Positions 1 to 62,694 of a stretch of DNA of 64,000 bases are shown one piece after another (position 1 is the stretch's first letter; the number at the start of each line of letters is the position of its first letter). The DNA lies in assembly GCA_963855995.1 (NCBI GenBank), contig CAWLCR010000065.1, positions 131,501-195,500 on the forward strand. Direction: 5' to 3'. The stretch is from Muricea muricata (lineage: Eukaryota > Cnidaria > Anthozoa > Malacalcyonacea > Plexauridae). The notes below the pieces were generated by a model. That model was given only the letters and a program-made list of their open reading frames with translations. It was not told the origin of the DNA and ran no database searches. The translations under genes and the position numbers were made by a program.

Positions 1-373
1 GTTCCTCAAAGAAATCAAAATCATTGCCACCACCAGCGACATCCAGTTTTTCAGACATATCGACTTCTGTTTGCAAATGGTCATGAGTCCCATGAATTTC
101 TTCTGATTGATCAGAAAAAGATGTTTGTATGGTGCAATCTTCGTCGGTGGAATCAATCAACTCATTGCTGATACCATGTAAATTAAAGCCGTCACCAAAC
201 GTTTCTGTCGGAGAAGAATCTTCGCTATAGATATTTAATCTGTCGCTAGTAATATTTTCGCTTGAATCAAAATTTTGTCGACGCCATTTTGTTGTTCTTG
301 GTATATTAGTATCATCATATTCGTCGTTCATCCACCGTTTATACGGCCCTCTTGCTTTTGTAGGATTACTCAT
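1..373 (-). CDS. Unrecognised acidic protein, N-terminal part
   Basis: A minus-strand frame opens with ATG at 373-371 and stays open for 124 codons to the window edge, so the 3' end is missing. The protein begins MSNPTKARGPYKRW and then becomes rich in Asp, Glu, Ser and Asn, with no membrane segment and no catalytic motif that I recognise. The basic RGPYKRW start followed by an acidic low-complexity stretch recalls the N-termini of some transposon-encoded proteins in invertebrate genomes, but this is only an impression. It could equally be a first exon of a host gene. There is no splice donor that must be used inside it. Confidence 0.45.
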   Translation of the reverse strand, partial: MSNPTKARGPYKRWMNDEYDDTNIPRTTKWRRQNFDSSENITSDRLNIYSEDSSPTETFGDGFNLHGISNELIDSTDEDCTIQTSFSDQSEEIHGTHDHLQTEVDMSEKLDVAGGGNDFDFFEE

Positions 374-658
374 TCTTTGTTATCATTTTTTGTTTCATTA
401 GTTTTATTATATTACGAGTTCAGACTCAGACTGTATTCAAAGCACCGTCAGAAAATTTTGGTTGATATTTGTTCACATTTTTCAGTCCTTATACTTCGGT
501 AACTCTTCGGCAAGTCTTCGGTAAATTTCGACGTCGTTTCGTGCGCAGCGTGAAACTTCGTCACTGGTCAGCCTGACCACAGATTACTATTGTACCAGAT
601 GTCTATCTTCGTGTTTTCGCAAGGTAAATTTGTGTTCTCGATTTTCACTCTGATCACG
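374..658. other. Non-coding stretch between the minus-strand ORF and the DIRS element
   Basis: I see no convincing gene here. It would be the 5' flank of the minus-strand ORF. It holds the left member (577-611) of a perfect 35-bp inverted repeat whose partner lies beyond the DIRS element. Confidence 0.5.
577..611 (+). repeat. Left arm of 35-bp inverted repeat flanking the DIRS element
   Basis: This sequence begins CCACAGATTACTATTG and ends GTCTATCTTCG. It is an exact reverse complement of 5694-5728. The similarity extends weakly outward (ctggtcagcctga against gggccagtcagg). The pair lies outside the DIRS termini, so it belongs to an older palindromic element or host palindrome into which the DIRS element inserted. 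Confidence 0.8.
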
Positions 659-812
659 AATTATATTTCGAACACAGAAGTTCGATATAACAATGCTTTA
701 TTCTTCATTAAACTTTACACAGCTGATGAAGAAAAAATAACAAAGACTGGTAACTAATATTACGTCATAAAGTGACTGTTAACACGAGGCAAGCCTCGAC
801 TCAAGTCAGTTC
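659..812 (+). repeat. DIRS left inverted terminal repeat
   Basis: About 120 bp of this block (roughly 690-812) match the reverse complement of 5270-5400 almost exactly. The outermost 30 bp differ between the two ends, as is usual for DIRS split termini, and are separately copied in the internal complementary region. Confidence 0.88.
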
Positions 813-907
813 TTCATCAGCTCGCTTTGCACAGCAAACGCTTCGTCGAGTCACTCCGAAAATACATTCTTATTGAATTAATTTACGCCCTCTGGTATAG
901 CTTGGTG

Positions 908-1987
908 ATGGCTTCGGATGGGGTAGAGGTAGCTAGTACTCCTGAGGAACCCCAGTCAGTTTCACGACCTGTGTCGTGCGGAAAAGAGCCGGTTTCAGAA
1001 CCGAGGAAAAAATCTCCCGTAGCCCGCTCGGCGGCCGGGAAAAAATCTCGAAAGCGTAGGCTTTCACCAAAACCAAAACCCTCCAAATCAAAAAGGAAGA
1101 GGTCCAAACGGTCCAAATTTGTCTACTCGACTTCACCAAGCTCGGATACCAGTGAAACCTCGAGCTCCGATGATGAATCCAGCTCGACTTCGTCAAGCAG
1201 CGTTTTTGAGCGCGAAAAATCTGGCCAGTCCTTTCAGACCGATGAAAATGGGGTCTCGATCTCGCCCCAAGTGCTAGATTTTGCTGTTTCTGCCGCTTTT
1301 CAGGGCCTGTCAAAGTCCGAAAGAAAAAACCTGGCAAAAGAGGCACCAGTACCTCAGCACGCTGATTTGCGGCCAAAAAGAGTTGATAGGTTTATCAAGA
1401 AATATTTCAAGCGCAAGGGCATTTCGTTCAATCCCAGCATGGACAGAAGGCAGTTGAATCTCGCTGCCCGTATTTTAGATCCTATTGGCCCTCTCACACA
1501 GTTGTGGGTGGCCGCTCTAGCAGCAAACGAAAACCAAACGGGTTTAGATCCTGCCGTAGTTGTCGAATTCGTTCGCCAGGCGATTTCGCTAGTGGGAAAT
1601 GCTTCCTTTTGTGGGCTTTCTGATCGCCGTAAAAGCCTGCTCGCAAAGGTTTCTCCGGAATCCTTAGATTTACTGGATGAGAGAAATTTGTTTGAAAAGA
1701 ATTCTGCCGATTTGTTCGGCAAAAAATTCAAAAAAGCCATGCTAAAAGAGTTTAAACATGACAAGATTATGGATAATCTTTTCGGTCGCAGTAGCCATGG
1801 CAACCGCAAGCAGTTTTTTCGCCAGCAGCCCGGGAAAGGCCCGGGCTTTTTCCCGGGTACCAATGCCCGACCGGGCATTCGTCAGTGGTCCGAGAGTCCC
1901 CAAAACCGCGGTTGGCAGACAGGGAAAACACAGTTCAGGAGCTTCGCGCCAGGAACAAAGAGGCGCTATCAACAGAGCGGAAAATAA
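908..1987 (+). CDS. DIRS Gag-like protein
   Basis: An ATG at 908 gives 359 residues starting MASDGVEVAS. The first 120 residues are basic and serine rich, with a run of KSKRKRSKRS-type sequence followed by an acidic serine cluster. The middle is a predicted helical region and the C-terminus is rich in Gly, Arg, Gln and Phe (QQPGKGPGFFPG, QNRGWQTGK). This matches DIRS Gag proteins, which lack the CCHC knuckles of Ty3/gypsy Gag. The frame stays open upstream to 827 but has no ATG there. It overlaps the RT frame by about 100 nt, implying a frameshift or separate initiation for Pol. Confidence 0.75.
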   Translation: MASDGVEVASTPEEPQSVSRPVSCGKEPVSEPRKKSPVARSAAGKKSRKRRLSPKPKPSKSKRKRSKRSKFVYSTSPSSDTSETSSSDDESSSTSSSSVFEREKSGQSFQTDENGVSISPQVLDFAVSAAFQGLSKSERKNLAKEAPVPQHADLRPKRVDRFIKKYFKRKGISFNPSMDRRQLNLAARILDPIGPLTQLWVAALAANENQTGLDPAVVVEFVRQAISLVGNASFCGLSDRRKSLLAKVSPESLDLLDERNLFEKNSADLFGKKFKKAMLKEFKHDKIMDNLFGRSSHGNRKQFFRQQPGKGPGFFPGTNARPGIRQWSESPQNRGWQTGKTQFRSFAPGTKRRYQQSGK

Positions 1988-4152
1988 CTCAAGGTATTTC
2001 ACCTGTTTTAAAACAATTTCCAGAGGCACGGGCCGGACTACCGAGTTTGCAACCCACAGCAGTTGCGCAAACGGGACCTTTGAGTCGTTTAAAAATAGAT
2101 TTTCTCGCCATCACTCAGCCAGCGAAGTTAGCCGGCCGTTTGGCTCATTTTGTTCAAAATTGGCGTCTCATTTCAAGCGACCCAGACGTTCTGGCGGCCG
2201 TTGTGGGTTACAAACTCGAGTTCACAACAACTCCACTCCAAACAGGCCTGCCCCCCGTGCTACATTTCTCAAAATCGGACTCGGCCAAAATCGATACCGA
2301 GATCCAATCCCTGATACAGAAAGGGGCCCTAAAACAGGTTCAACCAGAAGCAGAACAGTTTCTGAGCAATCTTTTTCTAGTCCCCAAACGAGACGGGACT
2401 TCACGTCCAGTGATCAACCTCAAGGGTTTGAACGGTTTTCTCCAATACACACATTTCAAAATGGAGGGTATCCATCTCCTGCGAGATCTGGTTCAGCCGG
2501 GGGACTGGCTGGGCAAAGTCGACCTGAAGGATGCCTATTTTGTAGTACCGATTTGGAAGGGTCACCGGAAGTATCTTCGTTTCCTTTGGAAAGAGACACT
2601 TCTGGAATTTGCCTGTCTCCCGTTTGGTCTGGCTCTCGCACCGAGATTGTTCACCAAAATTATGAAGCCTGTCGTTGCCTTGCTTCGCCGGGCGGGTATT
2701 CGGTTGATAATTTACCTGGACGATCTGTTGTTCATGCATGCAACACGGGAGGGGCTGCGGGAGGACATGGCCACAGCCCGCTACCTCCTAGAAAACCTAG
2801 GGTTTGTGATAAACCTAGAGAAGTCAGTGTTTGTTCCAACGCAAAAACTCGAATTTCTGGGGTTCGTGATCAATACCATAGATATGATTCTTGTATTGCC
2901 CGACGACAAGGTGAAGTCGATCAAATCTCTGTGCAGGACTTTGCTGGGGCAACAACTAGTCTCAGTTCGGGACCTTTCTCAACTGATCGGCAAGCTTACG
3001 GCATCAATTCAGGCTGTTTTTCCTGCGCCCTTGCATTATCGCCACCTCCAACACCTCAAACATCAGGGTCTTGCGAGGGGAAGTGGCTACGATTCTTGTT
3101 TACCCCTTTCACGGGAAGCGAGGGAGGAAATCCAGTGGTGGCTAGTCCACCTTGAAGCATGGAACGGCAAAGCCATCCTGAGCTCACCCCCCGATCTAGT
3201 GATCGAGACCGATGCCTCGAAGGTAGGGTGGGGAGCAGTCTGTCGAGAAGTGAGAACAGGAGGCCTGTGGTCTCAGATGGAAAAGAAGCTCCATATAAAT
3301 TGCCTGGAGTTGCTAGCCGGCTCGTTTGCGGTGAAAAGTTTCACCAAGAACCGATTGTGTGCCCATGTGAGGCTTCGCATGGACAACACAACTGCAGTAG
3401 CCTATGTGAACCGATTAGGGGGTACCCATTCTTTAGTCCTCTCCAATTTAGCGCTTGCTCTGTGGGAATGGGCCCAAAAGAACAGCATCATGCTCAGCGC
3501 AGAACATTATGCGGGCCATCTCAACACGGTAGCCGACTGGGAGTCGCGTCACTTCCGGGATGCCAGCAACTGGCGCCTAGACCAGAACGTCTTCAGTTCC
3601 CTGATGCAAATTCGAGGACCTTGTGCGATAGATCTGTTTGCCGACAGATTGAACAGCCAGCTTCCGCAATTTTACAGCTGGAAACCAGACCCATTGTCAA
3701 TAGCAACGGATGCTCTACTGCAGGATTGGTCTCGAGGCCGGAATTATGCCTTCCCGCCCTTTTGGCTGATCATGCGCTCCCTAGCCAAATTACAGGGGGC
3801 GGGCGGGGAATTGATCTTAATCACGCCAGTCTGGCCAACACAAGCCTGGTATCCCAGAATTCTAGACATGTCTGTAGCGCCGCCTGTTCTCCTCCCGTCC
3901 TTTCCGGACCTATTGCTGAGCCCACGGGGCGAGAGACACCCGTTACTACTGAACGAGACCTTGTCGTTAGCCGCATGGCATGTCTCAAGCAATCCTTGCA
4001 ATCGGAGGGCATTTCTCCAGACGCTTCCCGGCTCATCCTGGCAGCATGGAGGCCAAGCACAAGCGCAGTTTATAACTCCGCCTGGAAAAAATGGCATTGC
4101 TGGTGTGACCGCCGGCAAATTGATCCACTTTGCCCCACTTTGGCTAATATAA
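1885..4152 (+). CDS. DIRS reverse transcriptase / RNase H / methyltransferase-like polyprotein
   Basis: The frame is open from 1885 to 4152 (755 codons); the true start is unknown because it overlaps Gag. The RT core includes FLVPKRDGTSRPVINLKGLN, KVDLKDAYF and the catalytic YLDDLL near 2716. RNase H follows, with ETDASKVGWG near 3206, LELLAGSFAV, RMDNTTAVAYVNR and YAGHLNTVADWESR. Downstream is the DIRS-specific block CAIDLFADRLNSQLPQFYSW and ITPVWPTQAWYPRI, related to the Dam-like methyltransferase region of this order. No internal stop is present over 2.2 kb, so the frame looks intact. The last 180 nt overlap the recombinase frame. Confidence 0.9.
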   Translation: MVRESPKPRLADRENTVQELRARNKEALSTERKITQGISPVLKQFPEARAGLPSLQPTAVAQTGPLSRLKIDFLAITQPAKLAGRLAHFVQNWRLISSDPDVLAAVVGYKLEFTTTPLQTGLPPVLHFSKSDSAKIDTEIQSLIQKGALKQVQPEAEQFLSNLFLVPKRDGTSRPVINLKGLNGFLQYTHFKMEGIHLLRDLVQPGDWLGKVDLKDAYFVVPIWKGHRKYLRFLWKETLLEFACLPFGLALAPRLFTKIMKPVVALLRRAGIRLIIYLDDLLFMHATREGLREDMATARYLLENLGFVINLEKSVFVPTQKLEFLGFVINTIDMILVLPDDKVKSIKSLCRTLLGQQLVSVRDLSQLIGKLTASIQAVFPAPLHYRHLQHLKHQGLARGSGYDSCLPLSREAREEIQWWLVHLEAWNGKAILSSPPDLVIETDASKVGWGAVCREVRTGGLWSQMEKKLHINCLELLAGSFAVKSFTKNRLCAHVRLRMDNTTAVAYVNRLGGTHSLVLSNLALALWEWAQKNSIMLSAEHYAGHLNTVADWESRHFRDASNWRLDQNVFSSLMQIRGPCAIDLFADRLNSQLPQFYSWKPDPLSIATDALLQDWSRGRNYAFPPFWLIMRSLAKLQGAGGELILITPVWPTQAWYPRILDMSVAPPVLLPSFPDLLLSPRGERHPLLLNETLSLAAWHVSSNPCNRRAFLQTLPGSSWQHGGQAQAQFITPPGKNGIAGVTAGKLIHFAPLWLI

Positions 4153-4955
4153 CAAGTTTCCTTGCCTGGGCTTTTGATGAAGGTTTTGAATACCGGACAA
4201 TCAACACTTATCGGTCTGCGTTATCTGGAGTGTTACCGCCCATTGAAGGTTTTGCGGTGGGTCAGCATCCACTCGTCGTCCGTTTGTTGAAAGGGATTTT
4301 AAACTTGCGCCCTGCGATGCCTCGTTACCAGAGCTCGTGAGATGTTTCTCTTGTTTTAGACTACTTCCGTGCGCAGCCAGAAAATAAGGACTTACCGCTA
4401 AACACTTTGTCACGCAAATTGGCTATGCTTCTTGCCCTTACTGCTCCAAAACGTTCTTCGGAACTTCAGCTTCTTGATACTCGTTTTATGCGCCTACATC
4501 CGGAAGGTGTTGAATTTCAGTTGCCTGGTCTAACTAAAACATCTTCTGAGATTTCTACGGTGTTCTTCGCAAAATTTGAACAAGATCATAACCTATGTGT
4601 TCTCCGTTGTTTGCAAGCTTATCTGGAGAAGACACGAGTTTTTCGTCCTATTCTTGTTCCCGCTCAACCAAACCAGTTATTGATTAGTTATCGTAGACCG
4701 CACGCCCCGGTAAAGTCATGCACAATTGCCCGATGGATCAAGTCAGTTTTGGGCAAAGCGGGGATTGATACTACCATTTTCAAAGCCCATTCCACTCGTT
4801 CCGCTTCCACATCGAGGGCAGTGAGTGGCGGGGTATCGCTAGAGGAAGTCCTAAAGATGGCTGATTGGTCAGGGCCTTCTACATTTAATCGATTTTACTA
4901 CCGTCCGCGTTTTGACAACGCTTTTGCGCGGTCAGTGTTAGAGAGTGCGGAGTAG
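3975..4955 (+). pseudogene. DIRS tyrosine recombinase with one in-frame stop
   Basis: The frame begins at ATG 3975 (MACLKQSLQSEGI) inside the end of the RT frame and runs to 4955. It contains a SAM-like N-terminal domain (RPSTSAVYNSAWKKW, TINTYRSALSG) and a catalytic domain with an Arg in APKRSSEL, the HxxR motif HSTRSAS and the nucleophile region NRFYYRP. A TGA at 4338-4340 interrupts it between the two domains without any change of frame; the flanking protein is continuous in the same frame, so this is a point nonsense change, most simply from Trp TGG. Recombinase from this copy would be truncated before the catalytic domain unless the stop is read through. Confidence 0.85.
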
Positions 4956-4977
4956 TTCCTGTTTAGCTTTAAACAAG

Positions 4978-5090
4978 CATTGTTATATCGAACTTCTGTG
5001 TTCGAAATATAATTGGGGATTTTGCAAGGGCGCGTAGCGCCCGAAGTAAAGTCGAAATTATATGAGAACACAGAAGTGAGATATAACAAT
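4978..5090 (+). repeat. DIRS internal complementary region
   Basis: The first third is the reverse complement of the element's left end (659-691) and the rest is the reverse complement of its right end (5391-5467). They meet at AATTGGGG. This is the classic DIRS ICR that aligns the two ends during circle formation. Confidence 0.9.
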
Positions 5091-5269
5091 CCCACCCTCC
5101 CTACCCGTTATCTTCGTTTATTGACTTTTATAGATAGCCTATCGGTAAAGCTGGTGTTTGTTTGCAGTGTAAGCTGTTGGATCCCTAAGGTGGTGGAAGT
5201 GTCTGTTTTTTACATTGAAGGTGTTCTGACCTGGAAATGTTGAAGGAAGTTCCATGGCTCGCTGATTTT

Positions 5270-5467
5270 GAACTGACTTGAGTCGAGGCTTGCCTCGTGT
5301 TAACAGTCACTTTATGACGTAATATTAGTTACCAGTCTTTGTTATTTTTTCTTCATCAGCTGTGTAAAGTTTAATGAAGAATAAAGCATTGTTATATCTC
5401 ACTTCTGTGTTCTCATATAATTTCGACTTTACTTCGGGCGCTACGCGCCCTTGCAAAATCCCCAATT
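5270..5467 (+). repeat. DIRS right inverted terminal repeat
   Basis: The inner part is inverted against 690-812. The outer 70 bp (5395-5467, ending GCAAAATCCCCAATT) are unique to this end and are copied in reverse within the internal complementary region. Confidence 0.88.
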
Positions 5468-5909
5468 GCACTCGTCATTTTTCGCAATATCACATATGTT
5501 GCGCTTACTAAGAACATGGCGGACACTTGCGTCAGACTCGCGTCCAGGCCAGGCCTTTGTCAGACATGCATAGGTTTTAGACTCGGTTAGACTGTTGCTT
5601 ACGTTGTATGGCGTGGATTGCGCTTACTAAGAACATGGCGGAAATCTTTCGTCAGCTCGCGTAAGCAGTCAAAAACTTGTAACAGATATTTGGCGAAGAT
5701 AGACATCTGGTACAATAGTAATCTGTGGCCTGACTGGCCCTAGTAAACAGCCCCTGGACATAATAATTAGTGGTCCCCCCTGGAAAAGCTATCACTTCAG
5801 GATAACACGTGCGAAAAAAGCTGCCGTGAATTTGTGCGACAACACTAATTTTCTTTTAAAAAAAGAATAATTCCAAATAAATTCGATAAAAACCACTGAC
5901 TCTTAAAGT
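5468..5909. other. Intergenic, upstream of the BEN-domain gene
   Basis: No gene is visible. A 25-bp direct repeat (starting TTGCGCTTACTAAGAACATG) occurs at 5499-5523 and 5618-5642. The right arm of the DIRS-flanking inverted repeat is at 5694-5728. The last 180 bp would hold the promoter of the BEN-domain gene, though I see no clear TATA box. Confidence 0.5.
5694..5728 (-). repeat. Right arm of 35-bp inverted repeat flanking the DIRS element
   Basis: Exact reverse complement of 577-611, lying 226 bp outside the DIRS right end. The two arms would be about 310 bp apart without the DIRS element, a size typical of a small foldback element. Confidence 0.8.
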
Positions 5910-5981
5910 ATGAAGTACGTCGTTGTAAACTGGATCGAGACAAACGAGACAAGTGTCCTAGAGGAAAGCTGCGTTCGTGAT
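5910..5981 (+). CDS. BEN gene exon 1 (start codon)
   Basis: ATG at 5910 opens 24 codons ending CVRD. The proposed donor is GAT|GTTACG, a weak site that falls inside the 8-bp duplication GATGTTAC. Similarity of the SCVRD end to BEND5 supports the exon. Confidence 0.6.
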
Positions 5982-8900
5982 GTTACGGGTACTTTACACT
6001 TTGCCGTACCCAAATAACGTCAGTGTGCGATGGCGTGATTAGTTTCTCGTTCTTTTATAATGTTTTGATGGCGTATGTATTTCGTAATTCCTAGAGTACT
6101 GACTACGGTACGGTAAAGTGTAAAATTTCCGATGTTACAATGTTGACGAACCCTGGAAAGAAGGGAATGATCTATTATAAAGAAATTGGGAAAAAACCAC
6201 GCAAAGGTGGATCAAAAGCCTATCTTGGTCGAGTTGTATCAGTGCATGGTAAGTTTTAAGCTAAACACATGTATTACAGTATTATTATGACATGTATGTT
6301 TGGATAGGCAGATAATGTTTTGTTTTAAACTCGGTGTATGAATGTTGTGCGCCTTAATTAATACTGGCTAGTATATCCCAACAACTAATAACTATAATGT
6401 GTTATTTTTAATAAGGCACTGTAAGGGAGGCTCGAAAAAGTGAGAATGAGTATATCCTCGAAGAGAAAGAGAATATAGAATCAAAGCAGCAATCTCCTTT
6501 AAAGAAAAGAAGGCGAAATAATTCCGATGAGGAGTCCAATTATTCAGACGAGGAACTTGAAGAAGATTCAGATTCTGCGAGCATAAAATATGGGAAGGTA
6601 TGTTAGCCTTGAACGTTCCTACTAGAATATATACATTTTATTATTTCTCAAAAAGTGATAATTCAATCCAGTGCATGTTATTGGCATAAGTATGATGTAT
6701 TTGGGTAGGATTAAAATATATACTGGTAATTATGTTGTATTTTATTCATTCTACCCCAAAGGAAGCAGGGGCTGCAGAGGCTATTTAGAAGTGGGGGGAG
6801 CTTGAAAATTCTCACATATGCTGCCACCTCTCCACTTGCGGCATAATTATGCATTCTATATACAAAATGTAATTTCATGTTACTTAATTAAGCCTTATTC
6901 TGGGGAAAAAAGTGGAGAGGCTAAAGACCCCCCCCCCCCAGGGCTCCTTGCCACCTGGAACGGATCTAACTTTGTAGAATCTCCTTCTATTTTCTCTGAA
7001 GCTGTTAATTTTTTTATACAGATAGTGTCAGTTGAAAAAAGGAGAAAAAAGGCAGAGAAGCTTGCTGCCGAGAAGTTAGTCAACACAACTGAAATTGAAT
7101 CTGATGACTTAACAAAATGCTCAAAAGAGGAGTTAATTAAAGAAATTAATCAGCTTCGGAAAGAGCTCAATGACGAAAAGGTAAAGAGAAATCTTTGGGA
7201 TGGTAAGTTATCAACAATCATGCTTGTGAATAGGGAGGCACATAACCTGTAATGATAAACTTCATTTACATGTCTCTGGATTTTAATAAAGTTTTAGCTT
7301 AGTTTAATTATGCACCAGAAATAATTAGAATATATTTAAATTTCTAAGAAAATGTGCATATACTGTTGCCTAAAAAGAATGCCATTTTAGTTGTGTTTTT
7401 GTATACATTAAAAAATGCTGCTCATGTCAGTGGCTTTTTCTTGGATTGTTCAGACTGTAGGTGGCACTATTGTTCTTGACAATGTATGACATGTTAGTTG
7501 GCAGTGTATGACCATTAGTCAGCCATGCATTAGTGGATGGTGTAAGACAAATAAAAATAAGAAAGAACAATTAGGATGCATAATTATATTGCATTATTAT
7601 GAACTGTAGCTGGTGTAGGTAGATTTGAATTCTACTGTATTTTCAATACCGAAAAATTGATCCCTTAATATATTTATTTCCTTTTTTTAATTTACCTATT
7701 TTAGAGCTTCCTCAACTACTAATTGAAGCAATGGCAAGTCATAAAGTTCTAGAGAAGCTAAAAAAATTGTCAGAGGAAGTGGAAAAAGCACCAAAAAACT
7801 CTCCTCGAAATGAAAACAAGTTTCTAAATATGGTGAGAAAAAACAGCGTGGCGAAAGTGTCCACTGTACGAACCAGCACCCCGCTCACAAAGGAACCATT
7901 TCAATGCCGGGTTAACTCAAGTAGGCCTGTAACACCCAAAACTCCACCAGTACAATCACATGATGGTCCAGACAGCCTTCCAGTTACACCAGTCAGGGCA
8001 TCCATGAATGACAGCGAACCAACATCATCACTCGAAACATCAGCATCGCTAGCAAGTGATGTTTGTCATGACACACCTGTCACACCATCAAGTTCTATTC
8101 CAAATTCTCCAAAGGACATTGACAAAACTCAGCTGCATGTAAGTTTTCTCATAATTTTTCAATATATATTTAAGTAAATACTGTAGCTACAAATCTTTCT
8201 AACAAAAGATTTGAAGCTACATTATGTAATATATTGGATATGTTTAATTTTTTTTTTTTCAGTTTCATTTTCAGCTCTGGGTAATGTATTGACAAAGCAC
8301 TGTAGCCTATAGCATTTTTTTAATTACTGTCGTTGCAATGGAAGTGTTGGTAAAATATTTTATAATATAGCATTTGTAAATTCTGAACGCTGATTGGCTA
8401 AGAACTGTGTTTATATTACTCTATGTCAACAGGGAAAATTTCCCGCCACTCTTCTGTCAAAGTTCTTCGTGCTATATTATAAAAGAAATATAAAACATTT
8501 TTTCCGTATTGATATACAGTTACATCAACACTCGTGAAAATTGGAAAAACTCGAAATTGTGTGAAAACAGACAATTTCCAGACAATTTCTCGTTCCAATT
8601 TCCACTCGTGTTGATATAACTGTATATCAACACGGAAAATGTTTTATATTTCTAAAGTATGAATTCATCTCCACAAGTTGATGAATCATTCGATAGAAAA
8701 TTGATCAACTTCCTTCTGTTAACTTTATGTGTATTTGTGATTGGTCAATACGTCCTGAAGTGAAATGTAATTGGCTATCTGGCTAACAGGAACTGGACAA
8801 CAGGAAGTTGACAAATTTTCTATCAAATAAATTCATCAACTTTTGGAAATGAATTCACACAATATTTTATCAACACTTCCATTGCAATGACCGTAAACAT

Positions 8901-9407
8901 GCATGCTAGAATTTGATTATTGCAGAATGGCATATTGCTCATGAACATTTTCTTTCATAGAAATTTTTAACACCAACTGCCTTGGCTGAAGTAGAAAGGT
9001 CCAAAAATTTTTCCAAAATGACAAAAACCCTTTTGTCAGCTGTTTTTGGTCGAGAGGTCTTAAAAAAGTCTACTCTAACTGGAAAGGCAAAAGATGAAGG
9101 AGAGATGTTGGATACCCATAAAGTTGAATTAATCACTGGTGAGTTGCTATCATTGTCAAGCTAGATACTGAGTGTGATTTATATACCAAAGCTCATCATT
9201 TGAAAGGATGAAGCATGCATGAATTGCTTTTTGTTGTTGGTTAGTCTAATGTTTTTTTACTATTCTTTTGCAGCCTATGTCATGCAATCCTTTCCTTTTG
9301 CTACAAGAACAGCCATTAGATTGGCAATATCACAAAAAATTAAAGATGAAAAAAAGGCCTGTGACCGCATGCTAAAATCCCAAGTTGATGCCAATATTGC
9401 ACATTGA
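5910..9407 (+). CDS. BEN-domain protein (BEND5-like layout)
   Basis: Seven exons, 5910-5981, 6095-6248, 6416-6597, 7022-7202, 7705-8138, 8961-9138 and 9274-9407, join in phase into 445 codons including the stop. BEN domains bind DNA or chromatin and usually mediate transcriptional repression. The N-terminus (MKYVVVNWIETNETS then ESCVRD) resembles the start of vertebrate BEND5. Exon 3 is acidic with a KKRRR nuclear-signal-like cluster, exon 4 is a charged predicted coiled coil (SKEELIKEINQLRKELNDEK), and exon 5 is Ser/Thr/Pro rich with repeated TPxTP-type sites. The BEN fold is at the C-terminus: MTKTLLSAVFGREVL, then TAIRLAISQKIKDEKKA. The start is the first ATG before the conserved block. 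The first two exons are uncertain because a TIR element interrupts them. An AATAAA lies 130 bp after the stop. Confidence 0.82.
5987..6130. mobile_element. 144-bp TIR element with 8-bp TSD inside the BEN coding sequence
   Basis: The sequence is bounded by GATGTTAC at 5979-5986 and 6131-6138. Its ends are inverted repeats: the left begins GGGTACTTTACACTTTGCCG and the reverse complement of the right begins GGAAATTTTACACTTTACCG, about 20 of 25 positions alike. An 8-bp duplication fits the hAT superfamily. Removing the element plus one duplication copy (152 bp) leaves a continuous frame running from CVRD into VTMLTNPGKKG, so it entered coding DNA. Read through, it introduces a stop (TAA near 6014). 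It must be spliced out, be absent from other alleles, or have broken the gene. Confidence 0.72.
6095..6248 (+). CDS. BEN gene exon 2
   Basis: Acceptor TTCCTAG|AGTACT (6094) lies inside the inserted element and keeps the frame, adding a few element-derived codons before ISDVTMLTNPGKKG. The donor CATG|GTAAGT at 6248 is strong. If the acceptor is wrong, the coding part from 6131 onward is still secure. Confidence 0.6.
6249..6415 (+). other. BEN gene intron 2
   Basis: Short GT-AG intron (GTAAGT to AATAAG), phase 1. Nothing else is seen in it. Confidence 0.7.
6416..6597 (+). CDS. BEN gene exon 3
   Basis: Sixty codons, rich in Glu, Ser and Asp, with a basic cluster SPLKKRRRNN that could serve as a nuclear signal. 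Donor AAG|GTATGT, phase 0. Confidence 0.78.
6598..7021 (+). other. BEN gene intron 3
   Basis: A 424-bp GT-AG intron. It contains a C11-12 homopolymer near 6931. The plus-strand frame starting at 6818 is intronic sequence that happens to be open into exon 4. Confidence 0.65.
7022..7202 (+). CDS. BEN gene exon 4 (coiled coil)
   Basis: Acceptor TTTATACAG|ATAGTG, donor GATG|GTAAGT, phase 1. It encodes a highly charged helix with heptad-like Leu/Ile spacing (EELIKEINQLRKELNDEK), probably a dimerisation coiled coil. Confidence 0.8.
7203..7704 (+). other. BEN gene intron 4
   Basis: A 502-bp GT-AG intron ending CTATTTTAG. I see no repeat structure or gene in it. Confidence 0.65.
7705..8138 (+). CDS. 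BEN gene exon 5 (Ser/Thr/Pro-rich)
   Basis: The largest exon, 144 codons. It starts with a short helix (LLIEAMASHKVLEKLKKLSE) and continues as a low-complexity linker with repeated Thr-Pro sites (RPVTPKTPP, LPVTPVR, DTPVTPSS) that look like proline-directed kinase sites. Donor CAT|GTAAGT, phase 0. Confidence 0.82.
8139..8960 (+). other. BEN gene intron 5 with a transposon
   Basis: GT-AG intron of 822 bp, two thirds of which is the palindromic element at 8329-8891. The rest is AT-rich with a T10-11 tract near 8250. Confidence 0.7.
8329..8891. mobile_element. 563-bp palindromic MITE-like element
   Basis: 31-bp terminal inverted repeats (8329-8359 and 8861-8891, two mismatches) start GTCGTTGCAATGGAAGTGTT on the left. 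Inside are two further palindromes, one centred near 8570 (AAAACATTTTTTCCGT against CACGGAAAATGTTTT) and one at 8660-8850 (AATTCATCTCCACAAGTTGA against TCAACTTTTGGAAATGAATT). No coding capacity. Confidence 0.7.
8961..9138 (+). CDS. BEN gene exon 6 (first half of BEN domain)
   Basis: Encodes the first helices of the BEN fold (MTKTLLSAVFGREVLKKSTL, then LDTHKVELI). Acceptor TTTCATAG, donor ACTG|GTGAGT, phase 1. Confidence 0.85.
9274..9407 (+). CDS. BEN gene exon 7 (end of BEN domain, stop)
   Basis: Acceptor TCTTTTGCAG, then VMQSFPFATRTAIRLAISQK completing the BEN domain, ending ANIAH and TGA at 9405-9407. Confidence 0.85.
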
Positions 9408-37600: not shown

Positions 37601-40600
37601 CTTGTTGGTAGATGACATCACCTTGACAGCATATAAGGTCGTGAGTTTCAACATCAGACCACCCCTGATGAAGACACTAGACCGGAGTGTCGAAACGTTG
37701 GGTCGTGAATGTAATCTTTGTTCGGTGATTTCATTCATTTAACAAAACCAGAGTAGCACTTATTATGTCGGATCTCGAAATTGTTTCCTACCAGCGTACA
37801 AAACACCTCAAAGTGCGTGCAAAAAACGCGGCTAGCGCCTTGTTTTTCAACACACTTTTTGGTGTTTTATACACCCGATAAAGGTTCCTTGTTTATTATA
37901 CATTACATAAGATCCTAACTACAGTGATATCTGGCAGGGTTTTCCACCAATGACATTATCATCACGTTATTCTGCATTTAAGTATAGGTAATAGTATAAT
38001 TTCGAGTGCAATTACGGATAAACAAGCACGAGTGAGTTTTAAAAAACTGCAAATATAAAAAGGAAATGTTCAAACAAGCATTTTGTACTTACAACTTCGC
38101 ATTATGCAAGTGCACTCATTCTCGAATTTCTTCGCTTAAAAAAATCATGTTTACAAAAGCCATGGCTAAAAGTTTTACGTACAAAGTTCCAGCATACTTT
38201 AGAGTTTGTTTTGTGATCATAATTGCCAGAGAAGAATCCCAAATTGTGTTGAAATTTCGACGAAATCTTTACGCAAACGTGAAAATTCGGCCGCCATATT
38301 TTTGGTTTTTCAGCGAGTAAATCCCATCGCTCAAAGAGCTTATTACAGATTTTTGCACTGTTGTTACAGATTTTTGCACTGTTGTTACAGATTTTTGCAC
38401 TGTGTTACAGATTTTTGCACTGTTTTGGGTGATGTTTGGGATTAACTGCACTCGAATCAACCAATCACAGCCCAGAAACATTTCCTTGTATATTATTAAG
38501 TGATGAAATAGTTAACATGCACAACTTGACGAAAACGAACGCATATTCAGTTATGTTAATGTCTATCCCCATATTTTATGCAAATTATACGAGTACTTTT
38601 GAAATTAGTTCAAACGCATATATGCACGTATACGCAGCCATGGCTGACGACTTATATGTGATTGAGGTACTTGTTGCTGAGCTGGATGTGGTTGGTGGGG
38701 TGTGGTTAACGTAGTGGTTGACGGGGAAATGGAACTTGTTGTTGGAGTAATGGCATTTGTATACGATCCTTATCGCCTGATATGATTCTTGACGTTGCTC
38801 TGGATATGCAAAATTTGCATATTCATTTCGTCCACTCTTTCCATCAGACCCCTGAAATACACAGTAAATACGTACATATATTACACATATACACACAAAA
38901 TTGAATGGGTATTTTGTTTATACCTTTGCAAAAATCAACGTTTGATTACTGTACTTACTGCCTTACTTCACGATGAACGTAGTCTCGAACTCGCCTACGC
39001 ACAGAATTGGTAACCAATGTGTGGTAACTGCTCAATTCGGGATTTCTTTTAATACCATTGACTATAATACCCACAAAGCACCGTGTTGCCGATATTGCTC
39101 TGCAATGATAAGCCTTCCTTCTACGTTTCCAATCTTTACTCTTGGTCGTGGAGGCATTGTTAGAAACTTGTTATCTTGCTAAACATGTTGAATTGTCCGT
39201 AACCTCCCAAGGGTTCAAAAATTTCTATGAGCTTCATAATCAACTAGCCACTACAGGGTGAGTAAAAAAACTGATGCTCTTTCAAATTCAAAGTAGCGGC
39301 GAATTTCATTACGGTGCATTCCCATGGGTATACAGAGAAGAGATCGTGATTTAGTACACAGTACGTAAACCACAAAGACTCTTTGTTCCGTTGTCAATTG
39401 CACCATGTTGTCGTGTTTCGGACTTTGTCTTGTTTCTGACAATTCTTGCACGGCTAAAATTATGCATTTTAACTTCCACTGGGAATTAGATTTTGTTTTA
39501 GCTCAACGTCTGTCAAATTGCAAGAATGCAATGCTGCTAGTTTGAATTTCAATAGTATAAGTTTTTTTACTCATCCTGAACTGTGTACTTAGTCACGATC
39601 TGTTCTCTGTATACCTATGGGAATACTTAAAGTTCCGTAATGAAATTCGTGGCTAATTTGAATTTGAAAGGGCATCAGTTTTTTTTGACTCACCCTGTAT
39701 AAGAAATTTTTCATGATGCAACGACACGCAGGGTGAATATGAAATAAGCAAACCTTTCAAATTTAATAATCATGCATAATAGGCATCATGCAGCTATATG
39801 TAAACTTGACAGCAATAATTGCTTTAAATAAATGGTACGTTCATAAAATTCTACGCACTTAAACGCATGGAAAGTTAAGTTCCAACGGTATGAAACAAAA
39901 GAACTTAAGTGTAGTCCTCACTGCATGGTTAGCGACATAAGCATAAGCAAAATAACAAACTTTAAGGATAAATTTTCCTCTGAGGTTTACAAAAACAAAG
40001 CAGAAATAATTTTATTCTAAATTTGCTTTTGTTTTGCCATAGCTTATGCTCGTAGTCTTATGTTTGTGCTTATGCTTATGTCGATACTTATGTGCAAGCT
40101 TCGGTGGATATCTTTGTTTTGTTTTACCTTGTGCTTATTGTTATGTCGATTAATCTGAATTTGAAAGGATTGATGTTTTTACGCACATTTTCAGTACATG
40201 ATTTGAATATATCACCTTAATCACTTGACGAAAATTCATAATTTCTCGTGTCAACCAATACGCAAGCGAGTTTATACGCGTTTAAGCAACCTTATCGTTC
40301 AGCTAATGAGGCTTTTCGTTCGTTTTCGTCAAGTTGTGCATGTTAACTAATAAAACGTTATTAACGTTATTTCGCATGCCTAATTGGCGATTAGGGCGTG
40401 TTGCACGTATGGTGGTTTTTGACATGGTATCACATCGGTGAAAGTCTTTAAAAAAAGCATTAGATTTCCATGCTCATGCCAGTATAGAATAAATGGAAGA
40501 AGTTCTATGTAGAACCATCCTCAGAGATATGAAAAACTAGATTCATATTAATCTGACACTGCAGAGAACAACGAGAAATTCGTTGTCTCCAGCGGGAGCA

Positions 40601-43708: not shown

Positions 43709-62694
<18,986 letters not shown>

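Follow-up and report, generated by a model that had tools for sequence, protein, structure and literature searches.

Has a short transposon in the coding sequence of a cnidarian gene already become an intron, or has it broken the gene? The question is raised by an element in the first coding exon of a BEN-domain gene in the window, the 64,000-nucleotide stretch of Muricea muricata DNA analysed here (C63:131501–195500; the gene and element features below are on its + strand), for which an earlier note, made from the letters alone, had proposed a transposon-born intron. We consider that a fresh MITE insertion disrupting one duplicate of the BEN gene is very probably the right explanation.

The interrupted BEN-domain gene

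Six exons were assigned to the gene, with borders placed by eye from splice-site-like sequence and open frames. Exon 1, the first coding exon, spans 5910–6248 with the insertion included (its empty-site form is 5910–5986 plus 6139–6248) and is followed by the inferred exons 2 (6416–6597), 3 (7022–7202), 4 (7705–8138), 5 (8961–9138), which carries the BEN domain by Pfam match, and 6 (9274–9407), which includes the stop codon; a small extra exon may lie ahead of exon 5. Joined, the inferred exons encode a 431-aa protein that matches Pfam BEN (PF10523) with E = 1.2e-8 and 35.4 bits against a cut-off of 23.2, so the BEN-domain gene recognised in the earlier note is real.

The element occupies 144 bp at 5987–6130, with repeat-family boundaries taken from the alignment with its other copies, and is flanked by an 8-bp target-site duplication, GATGTTAC, at 5979–5986 and 6131–6138. 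Its imperfect 24-nt terminal inverted repeats lie at 5987–6010 (GGGTACTTTACACTTTGCCGTACC) and 6107–6130, and the inverted arms 5986–6010 and 6107–6131 are 84% complementary. The length, inverted ends and duplication described earlier were thus confirmed, as was the uninterrupted frame said to underlie the insertion: deleting the element and one duplication copy in silico gave the open frame MKYVVVNWIETNETSVLEESCVRDVTMLTNPGKKG... When the element is present, the reading frame that starts at ATG 5910 runs for 35 codons and is closed within the element by an in-frame stop (TAA, 6015–6017), which the earlier note had also reported. RNA folding of the element gave a hairpin of −47 kcal/mol (z −2.78; equally stable shuffles, 2/200), which was set aside as a sign of function since inverted ends predict a hairpin anyway.

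The window's own genome, which comprises 74 contigs and 453 Mb, was searched for the repeat family. At least 40 places carry the element (window's included; 40 were scored out of 292 candidates), and the family is thus multi-copy; sequence-similar copies dispersed in the genome are a feature of introners as well. Three of the 39 other scored copies (L009, L010 and L011) are identical to the window copy across all 144 bases and two (L012 and L013) are one base apart, and subfamilies are visible when all 40 scored copies are aligned. A perfect 8-bp duplication flanks 28 of these 39, two have a duplication with 7 of 8 matching positions, four have a 9-bp duplication by eye, and five have none. 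An 8-bp duplication suggests hAT; membership of that group was considered and dropped since 9-bp duplications occur too.

The empty site and the duplicated block

When the own genome was searched with window 5500–6700, a site on contig C2 was found at which window 5731–5986 (99% identity) and 6131–6700 (100%) abut, the two matches overlapping by one 8-bp GATGTTAC. This is the empty site, with a single copy of the duplicated sequence. The C2 copy differs from the window copy by two mismatches in 818 bp, the codon at 5970–5972 being TGC in the window copy and TGT on C2, and the exon-1 proteins are identical over 65 residues. By protein search, all six exons are matched in order at C2:60450522–60464649, with exon 1 open. 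The C2 copy also has approximately 10.8 kb of extra sequence in intron 3, starting approximately 18 bp before exon 4, which counts against it as a simple cover for the window copy. The third copy lies on C1 and is damaged in another way: approximately 5.6 kb of other sequence interrupts its exon 1 between the equivalents of window 5970 and 6155, and it lacks approximately window 7100–9199. Judged by these matches, the BEN gene is present as at least three near-identical duplicates in its own genome.

The duplicates belong to a larger shared block, which is 99.6–99.8% identical among C63, C2 and C1. Such identity, together with the size of C63 (a 350-kb contig beside contigs of 12 to 124 Mb), would be expected if C63 were not a paralogue but an unplaced haplotype, of either C2 or C1, and the insertion an allele of one locus. 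That reading is compatible with disruption, and we regard it as unlikely, though the most plausible of the alternatives. Against it, the block is common to three different places, the sequence farther upstream differs among all three contigs, and window 45000–45600 has no second match in the own genome. As window 1–560 has three matches (C63, C2 and C1) and 45000–45600 has one, on C63, we take the block to be duplicated and C63 not to be the C2 locus again over its whole length.

Relatives of the gene gave the same picture of exon 1. With the 65-aa empty-site exon as query, all six relatives found have an uninterrupted exon 1, at 75–98% identity, independently of the C2 copy. The exon 4 query found two relatives, P0007 (93% identical) and P0008 (only 30% of the query matched), and the 431-aa query found none among 7993 scored candidates. 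Given the empty site on C2 and the uninterrupted exon 1 in 6/6 relatives, the insertion is, as read from these alignments, derived, recent and confined to the window copy among the copies seen.

Several features of the surrounding sequence were also recorded. Directly upstream of the BEN gene, at approximately 574–5730, lies a retrotransposon with inverted ends, presumably DIRS-like, with an ORF at 1885–4152 matching RVT_1 (E = 7.8e-21) and another at 4407–4955 whose Phage_integrase match falls just below the cut-off (26.3 vs 27.1 bits); neither the C2 nor the C1 copy of the block has it. The approximately 230 bp at its right end (window 5500–5730) recur at 99–100% identity in at least 36 other places (40 scored of 514 candidates), which makes this family, too, look very young. 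Within the dispersed repeat, the 24-nt sequence TTGCGCTTACTAAGAACATGGCGG, which we take to resemble YY1 sites, occurs twice by eye, at 5499–5522 and 5618–5641. Elsewhere in the window, at 40403–40792, a 195-bp unit occurs twice in perfect tandem.

Further partial copies of the BEN gene are present in the own genome. Among the matches listed, fragments of exons 5 and 6 (of 8961–9407) occur in pairs on many contigs without the other exons, as if a repeat carried the 3′ end of the gene. Identity is approximately 85–91% for exon 5 and 77–87% for exon 6, and in most pairs the exon 6 fragment contains a TGA. A second BEN-type family, 56–57% identical to exon 1, was found at C3:26713734, C3:39530425, C53:327754, C15:5419382 and C1:47296502; its copies score near-equally, and three have a weak BEN-exon match approximately 3.7 kb away. 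These matches suggest that BEN genes may have been repeatedly duplicated or mobile.

Splicing, downstream initiation or loss of function

The intron proposed in the earlier note joins a GT in the left duplication (5982–5983, GAT/GTTACG) to an AG inside the element (6093–6094, TTCCTAG/). The phase is right and the frame open across the junction, and 12 element-derived codons are left, in line with the few that had been expected to remain. Splice sites were scored with a textbook matrix. The acceptor is fair, its score of −0.45 lying in the top 14% of window AGs and inside the range of the gene's five inferred acceptors (−1.3 to 4.8). The donor is weak: the five donors inferred for the gene score 4.6 to 6.8 and this one −5.7, near the median for the window, where 55% of GTs score as well or better. 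The pair itself is expected by chance. When insertion of the element in this orientation was simulated at 1216 coding-sequence sites, an in-frame open GT..AG arose at 1206, and a pair scoring at least as high as the proposed one at 790; in the other orientation the counts were 1192/1216 and 472/1216. The in-frame GT..AG coincidence is no more than chance. Since nearly all simulated insertions carried one, finding an in-frame GT..AG within a short element does not count as evidence for an intron.

Other insertions of the family were examined by a joined-flank ORF test on 31 insertions, comprising the window's and 30 of the 39 others (five without a duplication and four with a 9-bp duplication were left out). 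Spanning ORFs had a median of 52 vs 67 at 2520 control points, a comparison of low power, the window's own exon being only 66 aa and so below the control median. Among the 10 longest non-window spanning ORFs, none was over the Pfam cut-off, the best match being FixQ (E = 0.087; 13.2 bits vs 29). By this weak ORF and Pfam test, the 30 other insertions showed no sign of exon location.

An introner-like newborn intron was a reasonable idea, since published introners can take their donor from the duplication and their acceptor from the element, and some add codons (PMC9860276). Here the product would carry the 12 extra codons between D24 and V25. This counts to some degree against disruption: residues 25–26 vary between relatives, and a protein made from the spliced form might for that reason be tolerated. 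Set against these points and the fair acceptor are the weak donor, the chance-level pair, the absence of a sign of exon location among the 30 other insertions in the weak test above, and the fact that rescue is unneeded where another copy has an open exon 1. A newborn intron of this kind is therefore very improbable in our judgement. Slightly less credit still goes to the full claim that a young transposon is already a spliced intron (5982–6094) in one duplicate and puts 12 more residues into a conserved N-terminal module, at a position that varies. The argument that the gene survives only if the element is spliced loses force beside the near-identical C2 copy with its empty, open exon 1, and the transposon-born intron is left unsupported.

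Translation might alternatively begin downstream, at the in-frame ATG 6140–6142, which codes for Met27 when the protein is intact. The transcript would then come from a promoter or first exon located at or within the element, and the BEN protein made from it would be shortened at its N terminus. This ATG has an A at −3, the frame is open from 6095 on, and Met27 is invariant in all seven rows of the exon-1 alignment. The shortened protein would lose residues 1–26, which include 13 columns invariant across the seven rows, and the presence of ATG 5910 and of more ATGs in the element upstream means that scanning would require a new transcription start. We consider downstream initiation improbable, if a little less so than splicing.

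Disruption of one duplicate thus remains the preferred reading. A non-autonomous DNA transposon would have landed very recently in exon 1 of one BEN gene copy. The in-frame stop, the element family, the duplication and the empty site together lead us to infer that the window copy, with its 35-codon ORF, is a loss-of-function or strongly damaged copy. Its transcript would be expected to be lost to nonsense-mediated decay, and the damage would be tolerated since exon 1 stays open in the C2 copy, which is putatively functional. The insertion is too young for the state of the other exons, decayed or not, to be informative on disruption. Of what the earlier note raised, two points are supported: that a transposon entered a coding exon which was intact, and the options offered there as alternatives to the intron, a private insertion or a broken copy.

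On this reading there is nothing unusual about the window case: a MITE inserted recently into a gene copy that is redundant. It is also a clean test case, as the genome contains identical sister elements and an empty paralogue that is nearly identical, and RNA reads could show if a fresh insertion in what is probably an animal gene is spliced, retained or silenced. Were it a spliced intron, it would be a very young transposon turned intron with an empty near-identical paralogue as its control.

Comparison with known systems

The gene resembles those of BEN-domain proteins in its Pfam BEN match and in an N-terminal CVRD motif, which we take to be BEND5-like and which reads CV(R/K/C)D in 6/7 aligned exon-1 rows and SVRD in the remaining one. 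The PDB search, for its part, found nothing beyond matches to BANP at non-significant E values of 0.89 and 0.94.

Merlin elements, as defined in PMC8101967, have GG ends, inverted repeats of 24 bp or longer and 8- or 9-bp target-site duplications. The present element is like the members of this superfamily (IS1016-related) and their MITEs in these respects: its ends begin GG (the family ends being GGGTACTTTACACTTT), its inverted repeats are 24 nt long, and 34 of the 39 other scored copies, two of them with a 7/8 match, have an 8- or 9-bp duplication. Matches to DDE_Tnp_IS1595, a Merlin-type transposase, occur in 58 places in the own genome. The likeness stops at an autonomous partner with the element's ends, none being found in the one of 58 transposase copies read (L069), where 2 kb of sequence shows neither those ends nor any obvious inverted repeat. 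We infer from the structural fit that the element is a young MITE of the Merlin superfamily.

Invasive intronic elements have reportedly been described in a dinoflagellate paper. Among the papers listed on MITE-born introns in coding exons, and on introners with cnidarians, none was recognised as the same case. The introner survey reports introners in only two taxonomic groups among animals and land plants, both of them animals (PMC9860276). The window element is unlike introners in its weak donor and in that other copies gave no sign of forming introns (weak ORF test, 30 copies). It is like them in being a short DNA element that is non-autonomous, has inverted ends and is flanked by a duplication. 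Its GT lies in that duplication and its AG inside the element, and the added codons would be of the kind that published introners can also leave (PMC9860276).
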